Shown here piece by piece: positions 2,228 to 51,500 of a stretch of DNA of 64,000 bases (position 1 is its first letter; each line of letters opens with the position of its first letter). The notes under the pieces are model-generated. The model was not told the origin of the DNA. It made no database searches and saw only the letters and a list, made by a program, of their open reading frames with translations. Source of the DNA: Thunnus maccoyii. Lineage: Eukaryota; Chordata; Actinopteri; Scombriformes; Scombridae. The stretch is taken from positions 28,650,957 through 28,714,956 of the forward strand of contig NC_056542.1 in the NCBI RefSeq assembly GCF_910596095.1, given 5' to 3'. Both the position numbers and the translations under genes were made by a program.

Positions 2228-5200
2228 CTATGATGTAGAGGAGTCTGGCTGGCTGAGATCCTTCTTCCTCTTTTTCTTCTTCTTCCCTCTGCAGGGCTTG
2301 CAGACGCAACACAGAATGCAGGGCGAGGCCAGCAGGAGGAGCGGGGAGGTCACCAGCACGATGATGCTGACCCCCACCAGGATTCCCACCACCTGAGAGA
2401 CAACACAGCAACATCTTGAATAGCTGGCAGACTGATTGATAAACTACAATCTTTTCAAATAGATAACAAGGACACCAGTTGTCAAATAAAAGGTGGTAAA
2501 GTATGTGTAGCATTTCAACACCAAAACAAAATTACTGTACTCTTTTTGAGAATTTATTAGTATAATATTTTTAAATTCTTATTCAAAACATTTGTTTTTG
2601 TCAAGAAATCCCCTGAAAAGGCCCAAATCAACATTGTGGGATTGTGACTTCCCTATCCTGTCTGTGGCACTCTGCCACAAAACCACTGGTTCCTACTGAA
2701 GATGAAAATCTTTATTTAAACAGCTCATAAATATATTATTTAATTTTTAAAAGGGGCTCAGTCATTTCCCCAAAGTAGCTGAGCACTGTAGTTTTTAGCA
2801 ATCATTACTCAAAAAGGAGTAAATTGTACATTTGGTGGGGACTATTTTCAGCTGCGTATTAAAACATTTGGTGCACTAGTGTGTATTTTCAGTAATGGGA
2901 GTCAAAATAAACTGTGTGTTCATGGTAATGAAGGCTGATGACTGTGGCTCATACACAATACTTGTTAGTGTCAGTGTTGGTTTCTATCTTTTCATGAGAT
3001 TTTTTGTCTATAACATTGCTGCCCTGTCTTCCAAAACCTTTCATGGGCTCAGAAAAACAGTTCTGTTTTCAGCTGTGTGACAATGAGTTTTTCAGATAAT
3101 TCAAATGATTTTAAAATAATTTCCTGAGCCTAAGAAATTGGAAAATGTTCCAAACATATAAAGGAACACTTATTCATCCAGTTTACCCTGAAAATGACTT
3201 GCTGAGTATACTGACAGCCTGTACTGGCCTTACAGTGCATTTTATGTGAGCCACTATGGTAGATTTTGCAGGAAATCCACTGTAGTTCTTTATAGTATCA
3301 CAACAGATCGCTTTATAGAGCAAAAAGGGAAGAAAGCGCTGTTCTTCTAGTGCAAATGTAGCTAAAGCTTCCTGTTAAAAACAGTAACATTTGGTGGGAA
3401 AAGCTGACAGGGAAATCGTAAACAAGCAACTTCTTGTTTGAGACAGTAGGGTTAATGGGTTCATCAACAATACCATTAGCAATACAACCATGTCAGTAAA
3501 GTAATTATGCCAAGATATTACTATTGATTTATGTTTCTAATTGTATATTATGTAGTTATACACAATTTGGCCAAAAGTATATGGACAAATTTGTACCCAT
3601 ACCTTTGTGTCACATCATTTCAAATCTAAATTTATAAAATGTACACTACAAACACAGTAAACAGTGCACTTTGATTTATGTACTGTCACAACAGCAGTGT
3701 TTGCATGCTGCTCATAGTTACAGTGGAAGAGGAATTTGTGACAAGCAGATTGTAAAAGGTATAGGACCTGTTAGGCAAGGGTGTAACTGAGTCCGTCATG
3801 AGTTGTTTTGCAAGGAACAACTATGCTGTTGTACTTCCACTCTCCAGACACTTTGTAACACAGTCCAACCAAGACGCAATCAGGAGGCTGACTGCAAGCT
3901 TGATACTAATCATGTGATAATGGCATCAGACTTGGGAAAGTAGAAAGAAAGTTGGCTTTACGGCCAATTGTAATAGTTCTGTTGAACGGACAACGTCATT
4001 TCAGGGCAGGAATTTGAGATTAGTGCTGGGATTAGCTCAGCTTAATGTCTGATAAAGGACTATTGGGGCACAGAGCTAGAAAACAACAAACCACGAACAA
4101 CATGCTGACTCAGACTGTTGGTTTTTAAAGGGAAATTCAGCAATAAATGTAGCTGCTGATAAACAGAACAAAGCTCGTGTCTGACGGTAAATGAGAACTG
4201 AATTACTTGACATACTCATGTCAGTTTTTATTTAAATTTTCAATAAGGGAAGTGTGCGGGGATGGTGGTTTTACTGTCCTGCGTAGGAGGTTGCTGTAAT
4301 GTCCTCAGTGCAGAGTATTTCAACAGCGACTAACTGCGTTGACAGCCGAACAGAGCTGATGGGATGGAGTCCAAAATCTTTAACTTCCACTCCTGGTAGC
4401 GTGATGGCACAGCTTTAACTAAACCCATGGAATAAACTACCGCTCATGGATGGGTGTCTCTGCGAGCTAATTCATTCAGACAATGAGAGCGTCACCACAA
4501 CCCTAAAATGAATACCGTAGTCTGGTCTGCTGTCTACTGTCTGGCCTCACCTGCGTTCTGTTCCACATAACTGAGGCCCTGGAGTGGCCAAGCTTGTTTC
4601 TGCATGGTCCCTTATCGTAATGCCTCAGGAAGATATCACCCTGCAATTACAAAAGGCACATGTTAAGACAAGAAATCTACTATCATGTAATCACCAAGGT
4701 TCTTCAAACACAAACTAAAAGTTAGTGACGCAGCAGCTGAGATGTTGTGAATGTACTTGGCTATAAAATACTTCTTATCAGGTGGAGAGGGAATATAGTA
4801 ATTTTTCAAGCATGGGGACTCACATCCAGATTCTGCAGACAGTACCAGCAGAAGGTGTGTTTGCAGCTCTTACACAGCATCTGCGCACAGCCTTGGTTCC
4901 TCTCGATGTAGATACCACACATAGGGCACTGCTTGATGGGCATGTCAGAGTTGCTGTCGGAGCGGACCCTGTGGATGGATGGAGGGGGGAAGACACAGGA
5001 GGTATAAGGCATGCAGTTAATGGGGGCACGAAGACCTCAAGGGTCTCCAGGCAAAGTGTGAAATGTTTATTTAGCAGCAGAGTGAAGGGTCAGTATTCAC
5101 TTGGAATTGGGTTAATTATTTTGGGAGTCATAGGTATGAGGGAGATATTCTGTAAGTACAATACAGGGCAGCTAACTTTGACTGACTGCAGTTTGATACT

Positions 5201-11889: not shown

Positions 11890-14800
11890 CTGAAAGGTTC
11901 AGCAGAAACAGCACTGATCTGTATCAGGCATAACACTTCCCCTTTTATTACAGTTCACACAGCCACTACTAGGCCTTCTGACAACACTGCAACCTGTTTC
12001 TGACACCTGTCATCCATTCTGTTAACCCGGAACACCAACTCTGATGACTTCAGCTTTCTCTGATGCAACACTATCATTGTCTTGCAACCTGAGACATGAA
12101 TTAGTCACTGTTTGAAGCTGTGTGGTGCATGAAGTAAAATATAATTATGTGTTATTACTGCAGTATTATTGATTAGTCATCATGTCTGTTGTTTCTCCAT
12201 AAATGGCTGTCATTTCCAAGGCCAAAGTCCAAGGTCTGTGTTTACCAAGCCTACAGTTATTGACCATCTCCTCTCTCATTCTGACAGGAAGAATTGATTG
12301 TTGATCATTTGAAACATGGTAAATAACTTGTGTAGCTACAGTCAATTGAAACTATTTTGTTTGAAGATAATGTTAACATCAAGCAAATTTACAGATCTAA
12401 ACACAAAGTACAGCACATGTACAGCTGATTATATTTAGTGTTTAGTCATAAATCAAAATATGTTTTTATAATTCATCCTAAGGGGGATATGAATGTGTGT
12501 ATGGCAATCCATCCAATAACTGTTGAGAAATGTCACTGAAAGCCACAAATATCAACTTCATGGTGGCGTTACAGAAGAATCATTAGGATTCAACCTCTGG
12601 TAACCATGAATGTCTGAAACAGATTTTGTGCCAATCCATCTATTTGATGGACTGTAGAGATATTTCACAGGATAAGAGAAAACTTCAGAAACTGCTGAGG
12701 TAAAGGCAGGGGATCACCAAAGTCTCTACAGTTCATCCTCTGGAGACCATGAATGTCTGTACCACATTTCATGGCAAACCATCCCATAGTTGTTGCGATA
12801 TAACAGTTTGGATCAGAGTATTTGACTGACCAACAGGCTGACATCCATAGAGTCATGCAGCTAGCATGGCTAAAACAAAAAAGGTATATTACACAAAAGC
12901 TGTTTAATTACAGCATCAAAGCACAAATGCTATCTGTTGGTTATCGGACATTATGTACCAGTTACATATTTTAGGACAGCAGGGCAAATGTAGGTGGATA
13001 ATATGGGCATAATCTGGTGTTAAAAGGAACTGAAGACACCAAACCCAAAAAAAATCATCCCTTTGGTTCTGCCCAATCCCAAAATGCATGAGGAATAATA
13101 ACCATAATCTGGGATTTGCCTTTAATCCTGTAGATAACAGTGGTTGGACACAGAACAGGGTCACACAGGAAACGGTGGCGTTAAAAACACACTCTGCAGC
13201 CTGAGTGGCTGTTGAAATCACACATTATCCCACACACAATGTACTCTAATTCAGCAGGCTGTTAAAGTTGGCAGGAAACTTTGGAGCAGCTCAATCAATA
13301 CAGCCACCACCAACACCACCACTGTCCTAAATTTTTCAGTGAGTGCTCTTTTATTATGTGCTATCGATCAGCGGCGGCATACATACAGATCATTGATAGT
13401 GGAGCTGATTGTAGCAACGCTCAGTGGTGTTTCTGCACAGTCATGATGTATCCTCCTGCACTGCTTTTAGACAGGCTGCAGTCATCATCCCACGATGCTG
13501 CCAGCCTGTGCCGTCCTGCCCGAGCATAACCAGCCCCATGGACTTGCATGAGAAAATAACAGGTTTCTACTAAGCTAGCTTTTCCTGCGTGGCAACTCCA
13601 ATATGTATTTAATAATGCAGTCAAGCCTATCATCCTGGAACAACTTTCGAATTCAGAGGAACTCGTGATTACTTACGTAACTGTCTGTCAATATATTAGG
13701 CCATAAAAGTGTTTTCATCTTAGAACAAAAAAAACCCCAATGTGTTATCCACCTTTGATACAACAGATATGAGGCAGTTTGATTGACTATTAACCACAGC
13801 GCTTATCAATACTTTATGGTTCCCTGATTCTAATGAAGCATCGTGATCCGATTTGTTTGCATGGATGAGTTTGGAGGATTTGACTTTCAGAAGCATCTCC
13901 TCCCTGATTATATGCAATTGTGGGACAAAATTTCAATAAATTCCATGTCAATTCAAAATGCTTGCAACCGTAAGCTTCAATCCAAAGATATTAGTATCAG
14001 TACTGACCTCCAAAAGTCCAGACTGACTGCAGTCCCTGCCACTGAAAAGCAATTAAGCTGAGAGTCCACATACAAACTTGAATTTCCAGTGTTAGAGCTA
14101 TTCATTAATCAAAACGCCCTTGTTTGCTAAGTTCTTTAAGGTGTGGAGCTGGCCATTCAGTCATTAGTAGTCCTCACGGATCAAGGTCTTGGTGGTATTC
14201 CAGCCACTGGGGATCAAAGCATCATTGTTGACCAGGGAGGCAGAAACGGAAAACCAGATCTGCCCGGTGAAAAGCTGCTGCTGCTTTACACAGACGGCCA
14301 CTGTGTTGGAGGGAGGCAGCTGGGACTGTGTGCTCGTGGAGTGTGTAGCAGAATTTATATGGCATCATTTATACAGCTGCAATCACTGCCTGTCTGTCTT
14401 TCTGGCCAAATAAGTAACCTGTGTGTTTTTGGGGCAAGAGAGCCTGAAACAAGAGCACATAAAGCTGAAACATACAAATCTGATAAAAACTGATAAGGTT
14501 GGAAAACCTGCATCTACTGTAGCCTGCATCAGGATATCCAGACTCAGTGTGGTGGATATTAAAATTGATTTTAAGGTATTATCCCTATTCCTTAAAAAAA
14601 GACTGCCAGTTTGCATTCTTTCACAGTAATCATGGAGTTAATGGAAGGTTATTTTCCATAATAGAATAAGAGGGTAATACATCTGTTACAGTGCATTCAA
14701 CCAGACCACACATGAAATTTGACACATCTGCATCACCCTCCAAGGTTGCATACTCACATAGGTCAAAATTCAAATACTGACGCATTTACAGTACCGACTC

Positions 14801-14895
14801 ACACTATTTCATACACGGCTTTGGCAGAGCAGCGTCTCCGTGAAGTGATGCAGACAAAAGCCGGATGAGCAGAGGACACACAGAGCGAAACCTAC
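11890..14895. other. Non-coding stretch, probably first intron of rnf144b
   Basis: Holds a degraded interspersed repeat (about 12480-12855, see separate entry). Several open frames of 60-116 codons exist on both strands, but none has a family signature or a splice partner. Nothing else is supported. Confidence 0.45.
12480..12855. repeat. Interspersed repeat (CCATCCAATAGTTGTTGAGATATT family), copy 2
   Basis: Contains GGGGGATATGAATGTGTGTA, CAATCCATCCAATAACTGTTGAG, TCATGGTGGCGTTACAG, and a second similar block with CATCCTCTGGAGACCATGAATG. It matches the copy at 43760-44045 word for word over long stretches with mismatches. Confidence 0.8.
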
Positions 14896-15060
14896 CTTGC
14901 CTGTGGACCACTGGGTGTAGGAGCTGCCTGAGTCCAGATCCACAGCCGCAGTGCTCTCACTGTGGCACAGACACATGTGTTGTTACAGTCTGCTGTTCTA
15001 ACAAGCGCTGCTGCCAACGCCTAATGCCGCTGCCGCCCCGCTGCCGCCTCTCTCACACAC
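14896..15060 (-). other. rnf144b: Possible non-coding first exon of rnf144b
   Basis: On the minus strand a good donor (GGCAAG then GTAGGT) ends at 14896, preceded by a GC-richer, CpG-containing segment that stands out from the AT-rich surroundings. It would splice to the acceptor ending at 11890. The upstream limit is a guess; there is no conservation or transcript evidence. Confidence 0.3.
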
Positions 15061-15094
15061 GCATAACATGTTTAAACGTCCTGCTGCTCGCTCC

Positions 15095-15096
<2 letters not shown>

Positions 15097-15155
<59 letters not shown>

Positions 15156-15184
15156 TGTGCGTGTGTGTGTGTGTGTGTGTGTGT
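15097..15184. repeat. (TG)n microsatellite
   Basis: About 88 bases of TG with one TCTGTGCG interruption. It sits between the probable rnf144b first exon and the RHIM-like gene, in the divergent intergenic segment. Confidence 0.97.
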
Positions 15185-15346
15185 TGTTTCCATCCAGGAA
15201 GCTGTGACTCGTCTCTGCTGATGTCCACTGTTGACTGCTCCTGCTGGTTATTTTACGATGTTCGTGCTGCTTTCAGGTGCAGTCGGAAAAACGGATGCCA
15301 GGCCATGAGCTGCACAGGAACGAGAATTAGGCTATAAACACCCAAT

Positions 15347-15790
15347 GATGGAATGTATTTAAGTACATTTACTCAAATACTAGTACAAATTTGAGGCACT
15401 TGGTACAAATTTTAGGCACTTGTACTTAACTCAAGTATAAAATGTTATTTTCCAATTCTACCCCTCTACATTTCAGATTGAGATATTGTGCTTTTTACCT
15501 TACTACATTTATCTGACAAATAGTTATTTTCCAGATTATAGATTTCAAATTTTAAAAAACAGAAGATAAATGTATAAAATACAATGTATTGTTGAAGATT
15601 AAACCAATTTCCCCCGGATTTTTTGGCTTGTTACTCCTTAAAAGCAGTGTCTGCTTAGAGCCCCTCATCACATTTCAGATGTCTGTGAGTTGTTAGCAGT
15701 TCCACTTAAGACACATTTCTCAGATGGTTTCATTTAAATAACTGTTCAAAGCCCAAACTCTCCAATATCTCACAAAAAACAAAAATTCGA
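15347..15790 (+). mobile_element. AAGTACATTTACT-type MITE, copy 1 (partial)
   Basis: Begins with TTTAAGTACATTTACTCAAA and continues with CTACATTTCAGATTGAGATATTGTG, ACTACATTTATCTGACA and CATTTCAGATGTCTGTGAG. The reverse complement of 16870-17276 carries the same words in the same order. It is one arm of an inverted pair around the first exon of the RHIM-like gene. Confidence 0.75.
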
Positions 15791-16461
15791 GCATATCCCT
15801 CATCAAAAAGGTGTAGCAAAACTTTTTTCTCCTTTCCTACCCTATTAATCAAATTCAAATTCAAATAAACTGGCATGAAGATGAATTACATCATCTCACA
15901 TGACGACCCCTTATATTTATCTTGTGACCTTTTCACTGGGCCGGACTTCAAAAGAAGTCTTCAAAAGACTAAATTTTTATGTTCAACTAGGCTTTGAGGA
16001 CAGCAAAATTGTACACGTGTAGTGTAATTTTCCCGTGTTGATACCTGCCTTCATGCCTGTTGCATCATTTCCTCCTCTTCATTCTGATGCCTCCTATGAG
16101 TGAACATCAGTTCAACTCATGTGCAACCAACTTAATGTGCTGTATTTTTAACGCGCCTAGACGTGGAAATAGGAGTTTACGAAGGCGGAATTGGTGGAAA
16201 AACAGATAGTCCAAAAATCTGTTTGAAATCAATAAATAAACTAACTTCATATTTAACAGGAAAATATCCTACTGTTGTGCCAGTCATTGACAAAAATATT
16301 CAGAGTCAGAGAGGGAAAAAATATATCAGTTTCTTGAACTACCTGTTGTTTATTTAATGTTTCATGTGTAGGTCCAAACATGTGAAATATCATGCAATAA
16401 TCTGTAATTACTTTAAAGAGAAAGCTTACTAGAAGCTTCGGACGGAAAGCCCAAGTTACAT

Positions 16462-16472
16462 TGCGCATGCGC
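16462..16472. promoter_or_regulatory. NRF1-like palindrome in the promoter of the RHIM-like gene
   Basis: TGCGCATGCGC fits the core of the NRF1 (nuclear respiratory factor 1) recognition sequence. It lies 88 bases upstream of the first ATG, in a short GC-rich patch within AT-rich DNA, which marks a likely core promoter. A looser kappa-B-like word (GGGGTTTTCT) lies about 20 bases downstream and is too weak to call. Confidence 0.45.
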
Positions 16473-16559
16473 CGAGTCGACCGGGGGGTTTTCTGAAAAT
16501 TTCTGTATATCAGCCGGCTTTTTGTCTTCAACTTTAGTATAACGACCACTGCCACACGA

Positions 16560-18244
16560 ATGATGAACACCTCTGACCCTCTAGCTCCGAGTCCTTTTAT
16601 AAACAGCAATTTGACAAAAATGAAAGAAAGAACATCGTTTAATCAGGTGAGAATTGTTTTATTTTATTTTATTTTTCCATAATTAGCCTGCATCTATGAG
16701 TGAAATATGTCTGTGCATGTCTCTCTTCGATATGTCAATAAAGTTAATTGCCAGTAAAAGAACTGCATGAATTAAAAGTACATAAGTGTTATCAACTTGG
16801 TGTAGTTATAGTATAAAACCAAAAGTAGTGGTTTGGTCCCTCTGTGATATATTATTATATTTGACATCATTAGATTATTAATAGTGAAGCATCAGTGATC
16901 ATGTGAGAAGTTTAGAGGGAAAAATCACTATTTGGTGGAGCTGTTAACAACTCATAGACATCTGAAATGTGACCCCGACTACACACTTCTTTTTGTAAGA
17001 CGTCAAAAGCCAAAAAGGTTGGAAACCACTGGTTTCATCTTTAACAATGTGTTGTATTTTAAAAGCTTGTTATATTATCCATTGTGTCAAATCTTCATCC
17101 GAAAAGTAACTAAAGCTGTCAAATAAATGTAGAGGAGTAGAAAGTACAATATTTCCCTCTGAAATGTAGTGAAGTAGAAATATAAAGTAGCATCAAATGG
17201 AAATACTCAAGTACCTCAAAATTGTGCTTATGTACAGTATTTGAGTAAATGTACTTAGTTACTTTCCACCACTGTATACAGGACACATAGACTGTGGTTC
17301 AGTTCTCTAAGGTCCGTGGATAAAAATAAATACTCTAAATCTAATTTGGTTTTGTGATAAAATCTTTGACACAAACAATCCCTCATTTCTCTATATTGTT
17401 GGGTGTTGTTCACTAAAACTGTTTCCTGTCTAAAACTAGCTATAGGCAAGAGAAACTGCATGTGACCTAGAAAAACAGCCCTGAGTGGAAGGTGGGCCGG
17501 GGGTGTTAGCTACATTTGTGGTGTTGTGGTTTGTGAATGCCTCCTCTATTTTGAATGTCACCATTGCTGGGAATCACTATTGTACAGAAAAACTCAAGCC
17601 CAATAACACCACCCAGATAATGGCTCCCTGACACACACATACTGAAGCTAAAGCTGATCTTCTTTTGCTTCTTTCCTCCAGGTGATGAGCTGCAGAGCCT
17701 CCAGCATGTACAAAGTCATGCAGATGGTGCAGAAGATGGCGCAGAAAAGCTGCAGGAGAGCCTGCCAACTTTTCTGCTGCCCATTGGACAATCTGTTGTG
17801 TGAAAACATCACATGGTGCCCAGGTAAAATCAATGACCCAGATTGTCTCCACACAGAAATACACAATTAAAACAATAATTTAAGAAAAACCATGAACATC
17901 TGCATGTATATTTGCTGTGTTTTACAACAGTTATGCTGAATATCTTCCTTGTTATTTCATGTTTCTGTTATTTAATTGTTCAGTGTTCAGATTCAGACTG
18001 TAGCTTTGTTTCTCAAAGACATGACTGACACTTTATTTGCACATATATTTTCATATTGCCAGATAACCCACCACACATGCCAAAAGTCTGCCATTAGTGT
18101 AAATGTAATAATACCTCTCTTGCTGTCTTTAAAACAGAAAATCACCACCCTGCACAGGATAAAACTATACCAGGTAATTTGGACACAGAAGTCACAAGAT
18201 AACTTCCACTTTTTCTATTTTTTTTTATCATTTATGTCCTCATA

Positions 18245-18279
<35 letters not shown>

Positions 18280-18281
18280 AT

Positions 18282-18312
<31 letters not shown>

Positions 18313-18332
18313 TAGATAGATAGATAGATATA

Positions 18333-18421
<89 letters not shown>

Positions 18422-18434
18422 ATTGGGCTCTATC

Positions 18435-18483
<49 letters not shown>

Positions 18484-19263
18484 TAGGTAAAACCCATTGA
18501 GGCTGGAAATCTCTTTTGCGGGGAGGGGTAACCTCACACTTACATACTCAACCTCACGGAGACTAAGTTTACTACGTATGTTCAGGAACTATAAAAAAAC
18601 GTATTCTGACACATCGTGCTGTTACATCACTCTGGAACAATAACTTCCCTTTCTCATATTCTCTTCCCTTTTTCCCCTTTCTCTCTCATGAACAGTGAGT
18701 CTCCGGAACCCGCCGCCGTCTACAATTTTGATTGTTAACATCAGCAACTCCACCTTGATTGACTGCGTCATCGGGAACGACACCTACCCATCTGCAGTGG
18801 CAGAAAATCAGCCTCTAATGCAGGAATCTGAGCTCCAAATGCATGGTGGGTAACAGTCAAACCTATTTTACAGCATTTTTCTAGGGATGTGAAGCACTTT
18901 AGCTGCCACTTAAAGTACTATGCTATGCAGTATTATGTTTTGTAGTATTACTATTACTGCAGTGCAGCCGTCACACATGTGTCTAAACATGTCACAGCAC
19001 TCAAACTATTTTTACTGCTCAGGACTAGTAAAAAACATCCACTTTGTTCATTTGTTACAGATCACATGAGGTGCAGCTGCAGCTGTGGACAGCAGGGAGC
19101 AGCACAGACCTCTGCTGTTCCTCCTCCTCCTCCTCCTCCATCAGCAGAGCCTCAGAGCATCAACATCCACAGCTCTAATCTCAGCTGCGTCATCATCGGA
19201 GACAATAACTATATGCAGGTGGACAAGACCCGCTTGATGGAATCTGAGGAAACACACATGTGA
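16560..19263 (+). CDS. Unnamed small protein with two RHIM-like motifs
   Basis: Five exons: 16560-16646, 17682-17823, 18138-18173, 18696-18845, 19061-19263. They join at GT-AG sites with consistent phase (0,1,1,1) to 618 nt, 205 residues. Exon 2 (residues 30-77) is Met/Lys/Cys-rich with a CQLFCCPLDNLLC run. Exon 4 encodes VNISNSTLIDCVIGNDTY (102-119); exon 5 has a Cys cluster (CSCSC), seven prolines (159-165), then INIHSSNLSCVIIGDNNYM (172-190) and stops 15 residues later. The second motif fits the RHIM pattern: a hydrophobic tetrad ending in Gly, then xxNxM. From memory, the human RIPK3 core is VQVGDNNYL. RHIMs form heteromeric amyloids in necroptosis and TRIF/ZBP1 signalling. There is no kinase, TIR or Z-alpha domain and no signal peptide. 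The name and function are unknown to me; an adaptor or inhibitor role is inference. Either of the tandem ATGs at 16560 and 16563 could start. Confidence 0.72.
16870..17276 (-). mobile_element. AAGTACATTTACT-type MITE, copy 2, inverted relative to copy 1
   Basis: Ends at the right with GAGTAAATGTACTTAGTTAC and TTTCCACCACTG, the usual terminus of this teleost repeat. It lies within intron 1 of the RHIM-like gene. With copy 1 it forms inverted arms about 1.1 kb apart around the gene's promoter and first exon. Confidence 0.8.
18241..18482. repeat. Compound microsatellite (TCTA)n-(TAGA)n-(AT)n-(TG)n-(TAGA)n
   Basis: A TCTA run at 18247-18279 is followed directly by TAGA runs, giving a perfect-stem inverted repeat. 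An AT run (about 18332-18366), a TG run (18367-18418) and another TAGA run (18436-18482) follow. It lies between exons 3 and 4 of the RHIM-like gene. Confidence 0.95.
18696..18845 (+). CDS. RHIM-like exon 1 of the unnamed gene (exon 4)
   Basis: Phase 1 to phase 1, 150 nt, so it can be skipped or duplicated without a frameshift. The motif NISNSTLIDCVIG has the core tetrad CVIG, and the residues after Gly (NDTYP) lack the Asn and Met/Leu of a strong RHIM. A downstream tail PLMQESE parallels LMESE in exon 5. Confidence 0.7.
19061..19263 (+). CDS. RHIM-like exon 2 of the unnamed gene (exon 5, terminal)
   Basis: Acceptor TTTGTTACAG. Encodes a Cys-rich lead (MRCSCSCG), a (CCT)n-coded run of seven prolines, and NIHSSNLSCVIIGDNNYMQV, which is the best RHIM match in the window. 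It ends LMESEETHM followed by TGA at 19261. Confidence 0.75.
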
Positions 19264-19723
19264 GGCTGTAGCCGCACACAAAGCTGACACTACACATTCT
19301 AGCAACACTTTGTCATTCGGTAGGATAACCAAAGTAACTGAAACTCAGTATTAGGAGACATTGTGAATTGGTCACCCTTTGGATTGGTCTCAGTGTCAGT
19401 TCTGCTTTGACTCAGCCTTTAGATGGGTTTCAGCCACTACCCAACTGTGTGTGTTTGCACGTACTGATTTAAAAACATAACTACAGCTAATTGCGGCCGA
19501 CTAAGTGTCGCAAGATTTTCAGTACGCAGAAACAAACGTCAGCTCTCCAAACCATACCCTAAAAAGATCCTCTTCAGTCAAAGGCTTTCCTGTTTTGCAA
19601 TGCCGGGCCTTCTGCTTCTCTGTCAGATATGAGGACATTAAGGTGGAAGCAACTGGAATTTTTACTATATCAATTTCCTACATGGATGAGTCATCCCTCT
19701 ATGATCATATTTCTTTCTTTCTT

Positions 19724-48517: not shown

Positions 48518-51500
48518 GACCAACAGTGATGACAGAATATGTGCTTGTCTCTTTCAGAGGAGCAGAAGGTACTCTGGGTCACTGCTTGGCATGCTCTGGC
48601 ATCCATTTGTTCAGACTGCATTCCAGTTAGAGATATTTTCACCAAACTCAGAAAATAACAACCGTCTCTTCATAAACGTTAACCTGCCTACATTTCTCAA
48701 AGTCCTGGAATGAGAGACAGTGTTGTTTCCAGAGGGAAAGAAAACTGCTATATGCTGTTTTGCTCATATAAAAATGCAGCAGTTACATTAAAATATGTGT
48801 CACCAAGATAAATTGTATTGTATGTCAGTTAGGGACAGTACAGTAGGACAAAAGGTAAACTCGGGGAGCATAGAGAGTGAATGGACTGAGGGTAAAAAAC
48901 ACAGACTGAACAGCAACTGCAAGTGACAGCTAGCAAGCCATTGGGCCAGACAGACTGCCACACTGCTCTGATACATCTCCTTGGAGAGCAGTGTTGGTTT
49001 GTGTATGTGTGTGTGTGTGTGTGTGTGACTGGGTATGTGGCTATTATGTAAACAGTATCAGGCCATGTGAGGACTGACACAGTGACTCTCTGCTCCATTG
49101 GACAAGAGAGATACATGACTCCCAGCAAGGGTGAGCCAGGCAGCCGGCTGCACTGTGGTAGTAATTTCTGTGTTCAAAGCCAACAACAATTTCATTTTCT
49201 CACATACATCATAAGAGAGAGCCTATATATATATTATCTGTTCGTGAAGTTTAAAAAAAGATGTACTTTATTTAATTATTTCCATTTTAAGCTACAATAC
49301 CTCATACTTCTACTCCACAACAGTGCAGAGGGAGGTATAGTACTTCTTAGTTCACAACATTTATTCAACAGCTTTATTTACTAGTTTTTCAAATTTAAAT
49401 ATCTATCTAAAACAAACATACAATACAGAATAACAGCCACAAGTATACAGGCTCATCCTCAAACAGCTACAACATTAAATTCATTTTTACAAGTTAATGT
49501 GTCAGTAATAATATAATCAATACAATAACAATCAAATAATACAACTGATAAATAGCATTCTGAAAGGAGGCTTCTGCATAATGTATACTTCTACTTTTGA
49601 TACTTATTTGAGCATATTTTGCTGATAATACTTACATACTTTTACTTGAGTAAGATTTTGAATGCAGGACTTTTACATGTAAAGGAGTAATTTTGAATTG
49701 TTATAATGGTATAATGGTTGTTTACAATATGTAAAGGATCAGAATACTTCTTTCTTCACTGGAATCCATGAGTTCAAGACTGAAACATTTCCTATTTTTG
49801 GTCAGTTTCACTGTATGATTTTATATTTCATGCTTCATTATATATGATTTTATGGCACAATTGATTAAATGTGCATGGGTCGTATAAATACACTGTGTAG
49901 AATCTATTTAACGGTTTGCTTGTTTCAAAGCACAGTTGCTAAGCTAACAAACAAGTCATCTAAAAGATGTCATGTGACACAGATCTTGATTTCCCTACAC
50001 TGTCTTCCCATTAAATTCATATATAGCTGGTCCTTTTGCTGCTAAATTTCCCACTACATCCACCAGCTATGAGCTAAGTTGTCTCTGTGTGCAGTTTGGT
50101 GCTGGGCAGGTAGTGTACAGTAGGTTTATCAGCCTTTTCACTGTAAACAACTGCCTGATGCAGCTGGAAACAAGGTTGAGAGTGGTGAGACTAAACCAAA
50201 ACAGTTAAGTTACAGTGAACCAAAACAAAAAGCTGAAAGACGCTAAAATGTGCTGCAGTGCTGAAGGGATATCCATTAGAAAATACTGATTAGTGCATCT
50301 TTAAATTTGGTGTCTAGTTCTTGAAGGGGCAGTCTGTCCAAGGAAAAATCCACAGGAAAACAGGGAGTGATGTGTTTTCCATTTCCAGCAATTACAACAA
50401 TGATTTGTTTCAAATCAGTAAAAAGGACAGACGTCACAGACGAGACAACAGTCGGTTTCTGTTGCCTACCTTGAGGATATCTCTGTAGCCATGAACACTG
50501 CAGATGTTGTCAGGGTCATCCTCTGCCTCGTCCTCTTCCTCTGTGGCCTCGTAGCCTTCGTCGGGGCAGGCGTCCTTCTCAGCTTCGGCCATGTTGGTCA
50601 TGAGATCGATGAGTTGCTCCAGGGGAGGGCTGAGCTCCCTCTCCTCATTCTCCTTCAGCCCATAGTCCAGAGCCTTGTAGATCATGATGCCCAGAGACTC
50701 AATCACCTGCAAGATCACAGGAGACAACGTACACTTTGAAACCAAACATATCTTCATATCTTTCTGCTTGTTCCACCTCCATCTGTAAAGTTTACCAGTT
50801 ACCCAATCTGCATGTTCTTCTATCTACGAACATTATGTTATTAATTCAGAAATATTAAGCATACATTATTTGTGAGTAATGCACCCTTTGCCTTTCTTTG
50901 TACATTATCCTGCTGTTCATCTGCCACATAATAAAAAACAAATATGTATTTGTGTCTTTGTTATGCAATATGATCCTCTTTTTTGCGCCAAGCCTGAGCT
51001 TGACAGCTGTAATACGGTGACCTCAGAACTCAACCTTTGATGAGAGAGGCTTCCTCTGCCATTCATACACACACGCAAACATACACACACACACTCTCTG
51101 GCCTGTGACAAGCTGACCCTGGGAGCAGATTACTGATAGTAGATCTTGTGATTAACTGACGCATGATGGAAAAAGACTATCCTCACATCATGCATGTCCC
51201 AATATAGACACAGTGTTTTGAAGATGAAAGTATTCAGAATATTCAGAAGCAAGAGCCAAAGTATGTAAGAGGTCAATTTGATGCTGTCATCTTGTGCTTG
51301 AAGTCATTTAAATAGCAAGGTTTCATGGAGGAAAAAAGGTTTAAAATCTCAAATTACTCCAGCAGCATGCTCCAAACATTCACATCTTGTCTAAAATGTG
51401 GCTAAAAACTTTCATTTTCAGTTGAAAAAATGTTATAATTTTTACACAGAGGTTTCTTTTGTCAAAAGGGACTTCCTTTGCTTTAGCAACCAACACTCAA

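Follow-up and report, generated by a model that had tools for sequence, protein, structure and literature searches.

Four human RHIM proteins, RIPK1, RIPK3, TRIF and ZBP1, are named in PMC9444067 and PMC12119088. According to PMC9531809, RHIMs stack as cross-beta amyloids, in which the core hydrophobic residues pack and Gln/Asn residues form hydrogen bonds along the fibril. The canonical core tetrad is given as (V/I)-Q-(V/I/L/C)-G (PMC9444067), and the cryptic RHIM (cRHIM) is described as a motif with the conserved Gln missing and the core V and G kept; insect Gln-less cRHIMs are reported to form amyloid (PMC9496462, PMC9531809). ZBP1 is reported missing from all the fish species examined in PMC12119088. 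The subject of this work is a small gene of the fish Thunnus maccoyii, located in a 64,000-nucleotide stretch of NC_056542.1 (positions 28,650,957 to 28,714,956, forward strand; the whole stretch is called the window), where a first-pass annotation had placed, at 16560..19263, a 205-residue protein with RHIM-like motifs. The observations concern its structure, a duplication of one of its exons, the likeness of its C-terminal motif to RHIMs, calibrated on real ones, and a genome search in which no second copy was found.

Structure of the gene

The exons and the motifs within them are the following.

16560..16646, + strand, exon 1: 87 nt, coding from ATG; donor CAG/GTGAGA, rank 1 of 229
17682..17823, + strand, exon 2: 142 nt, rich in Cys and Met, with a possible amphipathic helix at residues 37-60; acceptor rank 1 of 213
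18138..18173, + strand, exon 3: 36-nt micro-exon (gene finder and splice scores)
18696..18845, + strand, exon 4: 150 nt, phase 1-1, a diverged copy of the exon 5 unit (gene finder and duplication test)
18734..18790, + strand, repeat core of exon 4, VNISNSTLIDCVIGNDTYP, with Gly115 (motif search and duplication test)
19061..19263, + strand, exon 5: 203 nt including the stop codon; Pro-rich linker, RHIM-like motif and acidic tail (gene finder and motif scoring)
19159..19224, + strand, RHIM-like motif, INIHSSNLSCVIIGDNNYMQVD, tetrad VIIG with Gly185 (motif scoring, hidden Markov model (HMM) and Pfam match of the tail)

All the introns are GT-AG and the exons join in phase (0, 1, 1, 1), with a total of 618 nt that correspond to 205 amino acids plus the stop codon. 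The five phase-consistent exons of the first-pass annotation were reproduced by a gene finder blind to motifs, which links strong splice sites into the longest possible chain from ATG to stop, and the tetrad Gly is indeed residue 185, with VIIGDNNYM beginning at 19189. Precisely these exons were recovered from 16300-19400, 15300-19400 and 13000-19400 at site cut-offs of 7/7 and 6/7. Both the gene finder and the ranking of sites used splice-site score tables. Between 16.0 and 19.5 kb, the donors of exons 1-3 ranked 1, 5 and 2 among 229 GT sites, and the acceptors of exons 2-5 ranked 1, 10, 6 and 4 among 213 AG sites; the exon 4 donor, ATG/GTGGGT, scored 7.6, equal to that of exon 2. None of 60 dinucleotide shuffles reached 205 amino acids, the longest chain being of 120. 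When both strands were tiled (40 tiles of 3.1 kb), chains longer than 205 amino acids appeared in two tiles, with 296 and 206 amino acids on the minus strand. These tiles, at about 26.8-29.9 kb and 20.6-23.7 kb, coincide with minus-strand neighbour genes, so that the length of 205 amino acids is typical of real genes of this region and not of shuffles.

It can be concluded that the five-exon gene is very probably real. The contrary view, that splice-like sites happen to line up here without a gene or that the locus is a decayed pseudogene, is highly improbable. It can draw on the chain being known here from genomic sequence alone, on its breaking at cut-offs of 8/8 (it is lost past exon 2 or swapped for another frame) and on the low guanine plus cytosine (GC) content of exons 1 and 3 (37% and 42%). 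It has to contend with the outcome of the shuffles, with a frame that is open across all five exons, with the GC content of exons 2, 4 and 5 (50-53%, exon 4 being taken three bases longer) versus 32-37% in the introns, and with an intron 3 full of microsatellites. These are long TATC, GATA and GT repeats (window 18240-18485). When the search region was extended to 20600, a simple-repeat sixth exon could be appended.

Seven Cys residues lie within residues 33-75 of the protein. No membrane-spanning-like stretch was found in its 205 amino acids (best 19-residue hydropathy mean, 1.38), and its location is probably cytosolic. No kinase, TIR, death, CARD or Z-alpha domain was listed for it in Pfam, NCBIfam or PADLOC, where no other domain exceeded the cut-off either; this agrees with the absence of kinase, TIR and Z-alpha stated in the first-pass annotation. 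The three Pfam entries for the whole protein were all unrelated and sub-threshold, and the gene finder, at cut-offs of 7/7 and 6/7, added no exon upstream as far back as 13000.

Likeness of the exon 5 motif to RHIMs

The background for all the counts of 15-mers and 18-mers was the translated DNA of the window, as distinct from a proteome. The exon 5 core had been described as close to that of RIPK3, and this held: in BLOSUM62 comparisons with human RIPK3 alone it scored 39 points, the next segment of the window 24, and none of 55,754 background 15-mers was as high. When five known RHIMs were averaged for the comparison, exon 5 ranked first of 55,756 15-mers, with 26.8 and a runner-up at 20.0. 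In comparisons with six known RHIMs taken one by one, 0, 0, 1, 7, 10 and 14 of the 55,754 background 15-mers equalled or exceeded exon 5; in the reverse direction, exon 5 being the query, the numbers were 0, 1, 12, 12, 12 and 23. An HMM of four RHIMs (those of RIPK3 and RIPK1 in PDB chains, that of the fish's own ripk1 and that of human RIPK1) gave exon 5 as its top match in the window, with an E-value of 0.0052. The pattern [IVL]-x-[IVL]-G-x-x-N-x-[MLI] had three matches in the six-frame translation of the window; with the second residue restricted to Q or I, exon 5 was the sole match, the I having been chosen with exon 5 in view.

Several results weigh against the assignment of exon 5 to the RHIM class. 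Compared with the fish's own ripk1 alone, exon 5 came second in the window, and with human TRIF alone it fell outside the top six. With RIPK3 removed from the model, the E-value of the HMM match rose to 0.17. Scaled from 64 kb to the 782 Mb of the genome, the E-value of 0.0052 would not be significant, and therefore the motif alone cannot carry the RHIM claim. The Gln of the canonical tetrad is absent from exon 5 (VIIG) and from exon 4 (CVIG), so that the fit to the RHIM core stated in the first-pass annotation holds as a likeness and not as the canonical tetrad. In an ungapped comparison, three of the six invariant columns of the four-RHIM alignment were absent from exon 5, and its upstream I-x-I strand is shifted in register by two residues relative to those of RIPK3 and Ticam1.

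The profile and structure databases add to this side. The Pfam RHIM family, PF12721, was not listed for the whole 205-residue product, nor for the 67-residue exon 5 peptide, for which the sole entry was the unrelated DUF4616 (E-value 0.026). It was the only family listed for the 37-residue tail, at 11.2 bits (E-value 0.29), below the cut-off of 20, and in a search of the genome with PF12721 at E-values up to 10 the locus was absent from the matches. In a PDB search with the full protein, RIPK3 appeared with an E-value of 0.11, behind transcription factor DP-1 (0.027), and the tail alone had no match. The PDB search is a blunt one, because the fish's real ripk1 RHIM matched PDB RIPK1 only at an E-value of 0.94. 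The resemblance of exon 4 to DP-1 (PDB 2aze, IVNTSKKTVIDCSISNDKF, window 18731-18790) was a short run within one exon, with E-values from 0.027 for the whole protein to 0.1 for exon 4 alone, and was taken as due to chance.

Calibration with the RHIMs of the same genome

The fish's own ripk1 was located in contig C12, with the core IQIG and 29.6 bits in Pfam RHIM. Its own ripk3 was located in contig C22, with the motif IQLSNVTGFQHGNNNTM and the core FQHG (motif in L045, 2026-2076, + strand; kinase exons in L041). The name ripk3 is based on two exons, which share 56% and 48% identity with human RIPK3, and on the motif, which follows in the same orientation about 9 kb further downstream, and we infer that the kinase exons and the FQHG motif form one gene; the best-scoring kinase of the ripk3 search lay elsewhere (C21). 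The fish's own ticam1 (C12:13521127-13521585 plus flanks, minus strand) has an open frame of 577 residues with a TIR domain (PF13676) and a C-terminal RHIM-type motif with the Gln-less tetrad IMIG. So, two of the three RHIM genes located in this genome have unusual tetrads (Ripk3 FQHG, Ticam1 IMIG). Pfam RHIM was tried as an arbiter over the whole genome and set aside: its sole match above cut-off was ripk1, while the ripk3 and ticam1 motifs were missed, and the ripk3 and ticam1 pieces were also unlisted when submitted to it. Since these motifs are missed, the silence of Pfam on exon 5 is not decisive.

The tetrad FQHG is unlike the fish variants VQFG, LQIG, VQSG and CQIG given in PMC12119088. 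In flounder Ripk3, replacement of the odd tetrad VQSG by AAAA is reported to lower necroptosis (PMC10825024), and VQSG placed in human RIPK3 is reported to give no activation of NF-kB (PMC12119088). In addition, C5:19674540-19690409 contains three kinase genes in tandem that are nearly identical to one another and similar to RIPK3; in the stretches analysed downstream of two of the three copies, no RHIM-like motif was found (best scores 14.2 to 14.5, versus 35.8 for ripk3).

With regard to Ticam1, a carp TRIF paper (PMC8421551) states that fish TRIF is without a C-terminal RHIM, yet also that mutation of the RHIM of zebrafish TRIF disrupts NF-kB activation. A way to reconcile the two may be offered by the Gln-less motif of Ticam1 described here.

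When 18-mers around the core Gly were compared, the background 18-mers scoring as high as exon 5, of a total of 47,497, were 0 for human RIPK3, 7 for own ripk1, 2 for own ripk3, 0 for own ticam1, 1 for human RIPK1 and 47 for human TRIF. In the reverse comparison, exon 5 being the query, they were 0 to 55. Human TRIF, submitted to the same test versus the other five RHIMs, gave 0, 1, 127, 14 and 3. Judged by these counts, exon 5 sits inside the RHIM family's own spread, and exon 4 outside it. With gaps allowed, the Smith-Waterman scores of exon 5 were 45 with the tail of own ticam1 (0 of 3000 shuffles as high), 52 with human RIPK3 (0 of 3000), 33 with own ripk3 (26 of 3000) and 30 with own ripk1 (66 of 3000).

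Duplication of exons 4 and 5

Exons 4 and 5 each start in phase 1, and their alignment (Smith-Waterman score 49) keeps the columns PPPS, [VI]-N-I, S, L, I-G, Y and L-M. A score at least equal to that of the real alignment was obtained in 3 of 20,000 shuffles of exon 5, in 14 of 20,000 shuffles of exon 4 and, after removal of the proline runs, in 10 of 20,000. At the DNA level, with the end of exon 4 three bases longer, none of 2000 shuffles was as good. The tetrad glycines, Gly115 and Gly185, are 70 residues apart. By this alignment, exon 4 is a diverged duplicate of exon 5.

What the first-pass annotation called a second RHIM, CVIGNDTYP, starts at 18764 and is weak, its tetrad CVIG having C where V is expected. 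On its own, exon 4 was not RHIM-like, as between 182 and 23,008 of the 47,497 background 18-mers scored as high versus the six known RHIMs. With gaps allowed, 77 of 3000 shuffles equalled it versus own ticam1, and 340, 576 and 1398 of 3000 versus the other three RHIMs of this comparison. Therefore, of the double RHIM, only the exon 5 half was retained, and the protein is better described as having one RHIM-like motif plus a diverged copy.

These data bear on the possibility that the gene is real and its RHIM likeness fortuitous. In that case the protein would be disordered, rich in Cys and Pro and active in some other role, such as that of a scaffold tethered to the membrane by palmitoylation, and the sequence VIIGDNNYM in its duplicated exon would be a coincidence. 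This has a considerable chance of being right, though clearly under one half. Motifs this good are expected somewhere in a 782-Mb genome, as judged from the scaled E-value of the HMM, and the Gln that defines the tetrad is missing; the duplicate of the motif is not RHIM-like alone, and the Cys residues of the head would suit such a scaffold. It also agrees with this that no NF-kB, ISRE or GAS site was found within 15.4-16.9 kb, a stretch for which the expectation was just 0.07 to 0.47 sites of each kind. On the other hand, the resemblance extends over the C-terminal placement, the core, the next hydrophobic position and the upstream I-x-I strand (out of register as it is), and it holds versus both human RIPK3 and the fish's own Ticam1. 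Moreover, the N-I, I-G and Y columns common to exons 4 and 5 coincide with RHIM core positions. On balance, we lean slightly towards exon 5 holding a true RHIM-class motif.

Comparison with known systems

If exon 5 is such a motif, its closest counterpart may be in the Ticam1/TRIF of the same fish. Both have the motif at the C-terminus, a Gln-less core (IMIG and VIIG), M-x-V-D after the core, and an upstream I-x-I strand, but with the shift in register mentioned above; Ticam1 differs in its TIR domain within a frame of 577 residues, while the small protein is without TIR. In comparison with the human RIPK3 RHIM (PDB 7dac), the G-DNNY-hydrophobic half is nearly identical in exon 5, but the small protein has no kinase, reads VIIG instead of VQVG and has two extra residues before the tetrad.

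As in a cRHIM, V-I-I-G of exon 5 is without Gln and keeps V and G, and the core VHIG, which PMC9531809 gives for Aedes PGRP-LE and IMD, is close to it. The insect Pirk/Rudra (about 197 amino acids) is described as similar in size, about 200 residues, with a central element of two repeats in Pirk and with a cRHIM (PMC2483946, PMC9496462). The likeness, taken from published descriptions, is limited to size, two repeats and cRHIM, and homology is not claimed. In contrast, the mosquito (Aedes) Pirk-like protein is said to have no cRHIM and still to block amyloid (PMC9531809).

Like ZBP1/DAI, the gene product has more than one copy of a RHIM-related unit and neither kinase nor TIR; unlike it, it is small and without Z-alpha, and fish are reported to have no ZBP1 (PMC12119088). 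RHIM decoys of viral origin, among them ORF20 of varicella-zoster virus, likewise have a RHIM outside a signalling enzyme or adaptor and are said to inhibit cell death (PMC9444067, PMC7375649), but the small gene is a host gene with introns and had no viral relative in the collection viral_contigs.

Copy number, relatives and origin

A protein search of the whole 782-Mb genome returned, as best candidates, the four larger exons at the locus plus 15 weak matches with E-values from 0.05 to 5.7. Seven of the 15 were aligned (L016, L017, L018, L020, L025, L026 and L029), and in all seven the best alignment spans the proline-rich run; that of L018 continues across the motif region without matching the core. 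The proline-free tail of 37 residues matched only itself in the genome. Thus, no second copy was found by the protein and tail searches with these seven alignments. No relative was confirmed among 263 pattern matches in the prokaryote collection genome_contigs, nor among 41 in viral_contigs, both being collections without fish. Among the matches listed in a full-text search of openly licensed PubMed Central papers, none described a stand-alone vertebrate RHIM protein. The gene may already be labelled 'uncharacterized' in fish annotations.

Two origins were considered and rejected. Exon shuffling from ripk1 is at odds with the RHIM exon of ripk1, which appears to start just before the motif, unlike exon 5. 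An origin from ZBP1 is at odds with the lack of Z-alpha.

Promoter and neighbouring genes

One possible promoter element was noted upstream of the gene.

16463..16472, + strand, palindrome GCGCATGCGC, about 90 bp 5' of the start codon; sole copy in the window

We take GCGCATGCGC to be an NRF1-type core; the fuller pattern YGCGCAYGCGCR had no match in the window. The neighbourhood of the small gene looks ordinary. On the minus strand there is a gene for an RBR-type ligase, with an IBR domain in the frame 4809-5036, presumably RNF144 or RNF144-like, and extending over about 2.2-12 kb as estimated from open frames. Also on the minus strand, from 20.6 kb, there is the gene for dynein regulatory complex 9 / IQCG (drc9/iqcg; E-value 3.7e-14). 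The small gene lies between these two, and farther on there is a third minus-strand neighbour, which has a KIND domain (frame 50437-50823, E-value 4.9e-35) and is presumably spire. An open frame of 66 amino acids with 53% GC and no Pfam match (window 14167-14364, minus strand) is a possible exon of the adjoining minus-strand gene.

Proposed function

In the mechanism that we put forward, a Cys-rich and perhaps helical head (exons 1-3) precedes a unit that is encoded by a single exon and is present twice; the C-terminal copy would end in a Gln-less, cryptic RHIM-type amyloid motif, as in the Ticam1 tail of the same fish. The protein would act solely by RHIM-to-RHIM contact, because it has no kinase, TIR, death or Z-alpha domain, and would join the strands of Ripk1, Ripk3 or Ticam1 while they stack. 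Since it has no effector domain of its own, the strands would most likely be capped or diluted, and NF-kB, interferon or necroptosis signalling would be limited, as the IMD pathway is by fly Pirk. The location, the RHIM contact and the partners are part of this proposal, and the inhibitory direction is a guess from the architecture. By analogy with the systems compared above, a stand-alone Gln-less RHIM regulator that joins or caps Ripk/Ticam1 amyloids is our preferred, though tentative, reading, to which we give just under an even chance.

The opposite direction is improbable. Filaments of Ripk or Ticam1 would then be seeded by the protein, which, as a positive adaptor, would do the work of ZBP1 in fish, where ZBP1 is missing. 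This would suit the reported absence of ZBP1 from the fish examined, the more than one RHIM that ZBP1 too is said to have (PMC12119088), and a Cys-rich head that is possibly a sensor or a membrane anchor. It fits poorly with the domain searches, as no nucleic-acid-binding or oligomerising domain was found in Pfam, NCBIfam or PADLOC and there is no Z-alpha. The neighbouring genes also differ from those of ZBP1.

Returning to the capping regulator, its fullest version seems to us unlikely, although less so than the activator. It would be the first vertebrate case of a host-encoded stand-alone cRHIM protein, of Pirk-like design, that caps Ticam1/Ripk amyloids in ZBP1-less fish.

Significance

If the proposal is true, the gene would encode a fifth vertebrate RHIM protein, one that is little more than the motif, and vertebrates, as flies and herpesviruses do, would tune signalling amyloids with RHIMs placed outside signalling enzymes. 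A further suggestion would be that motifs of this kind escape profile searches; of the three RHIM genes located in this fish, two went undetected by the curated Pfam model. Finally, the cases of Ticam1 and of the small gene, taken together, would suggest that fish can do without the tetrad Gln.

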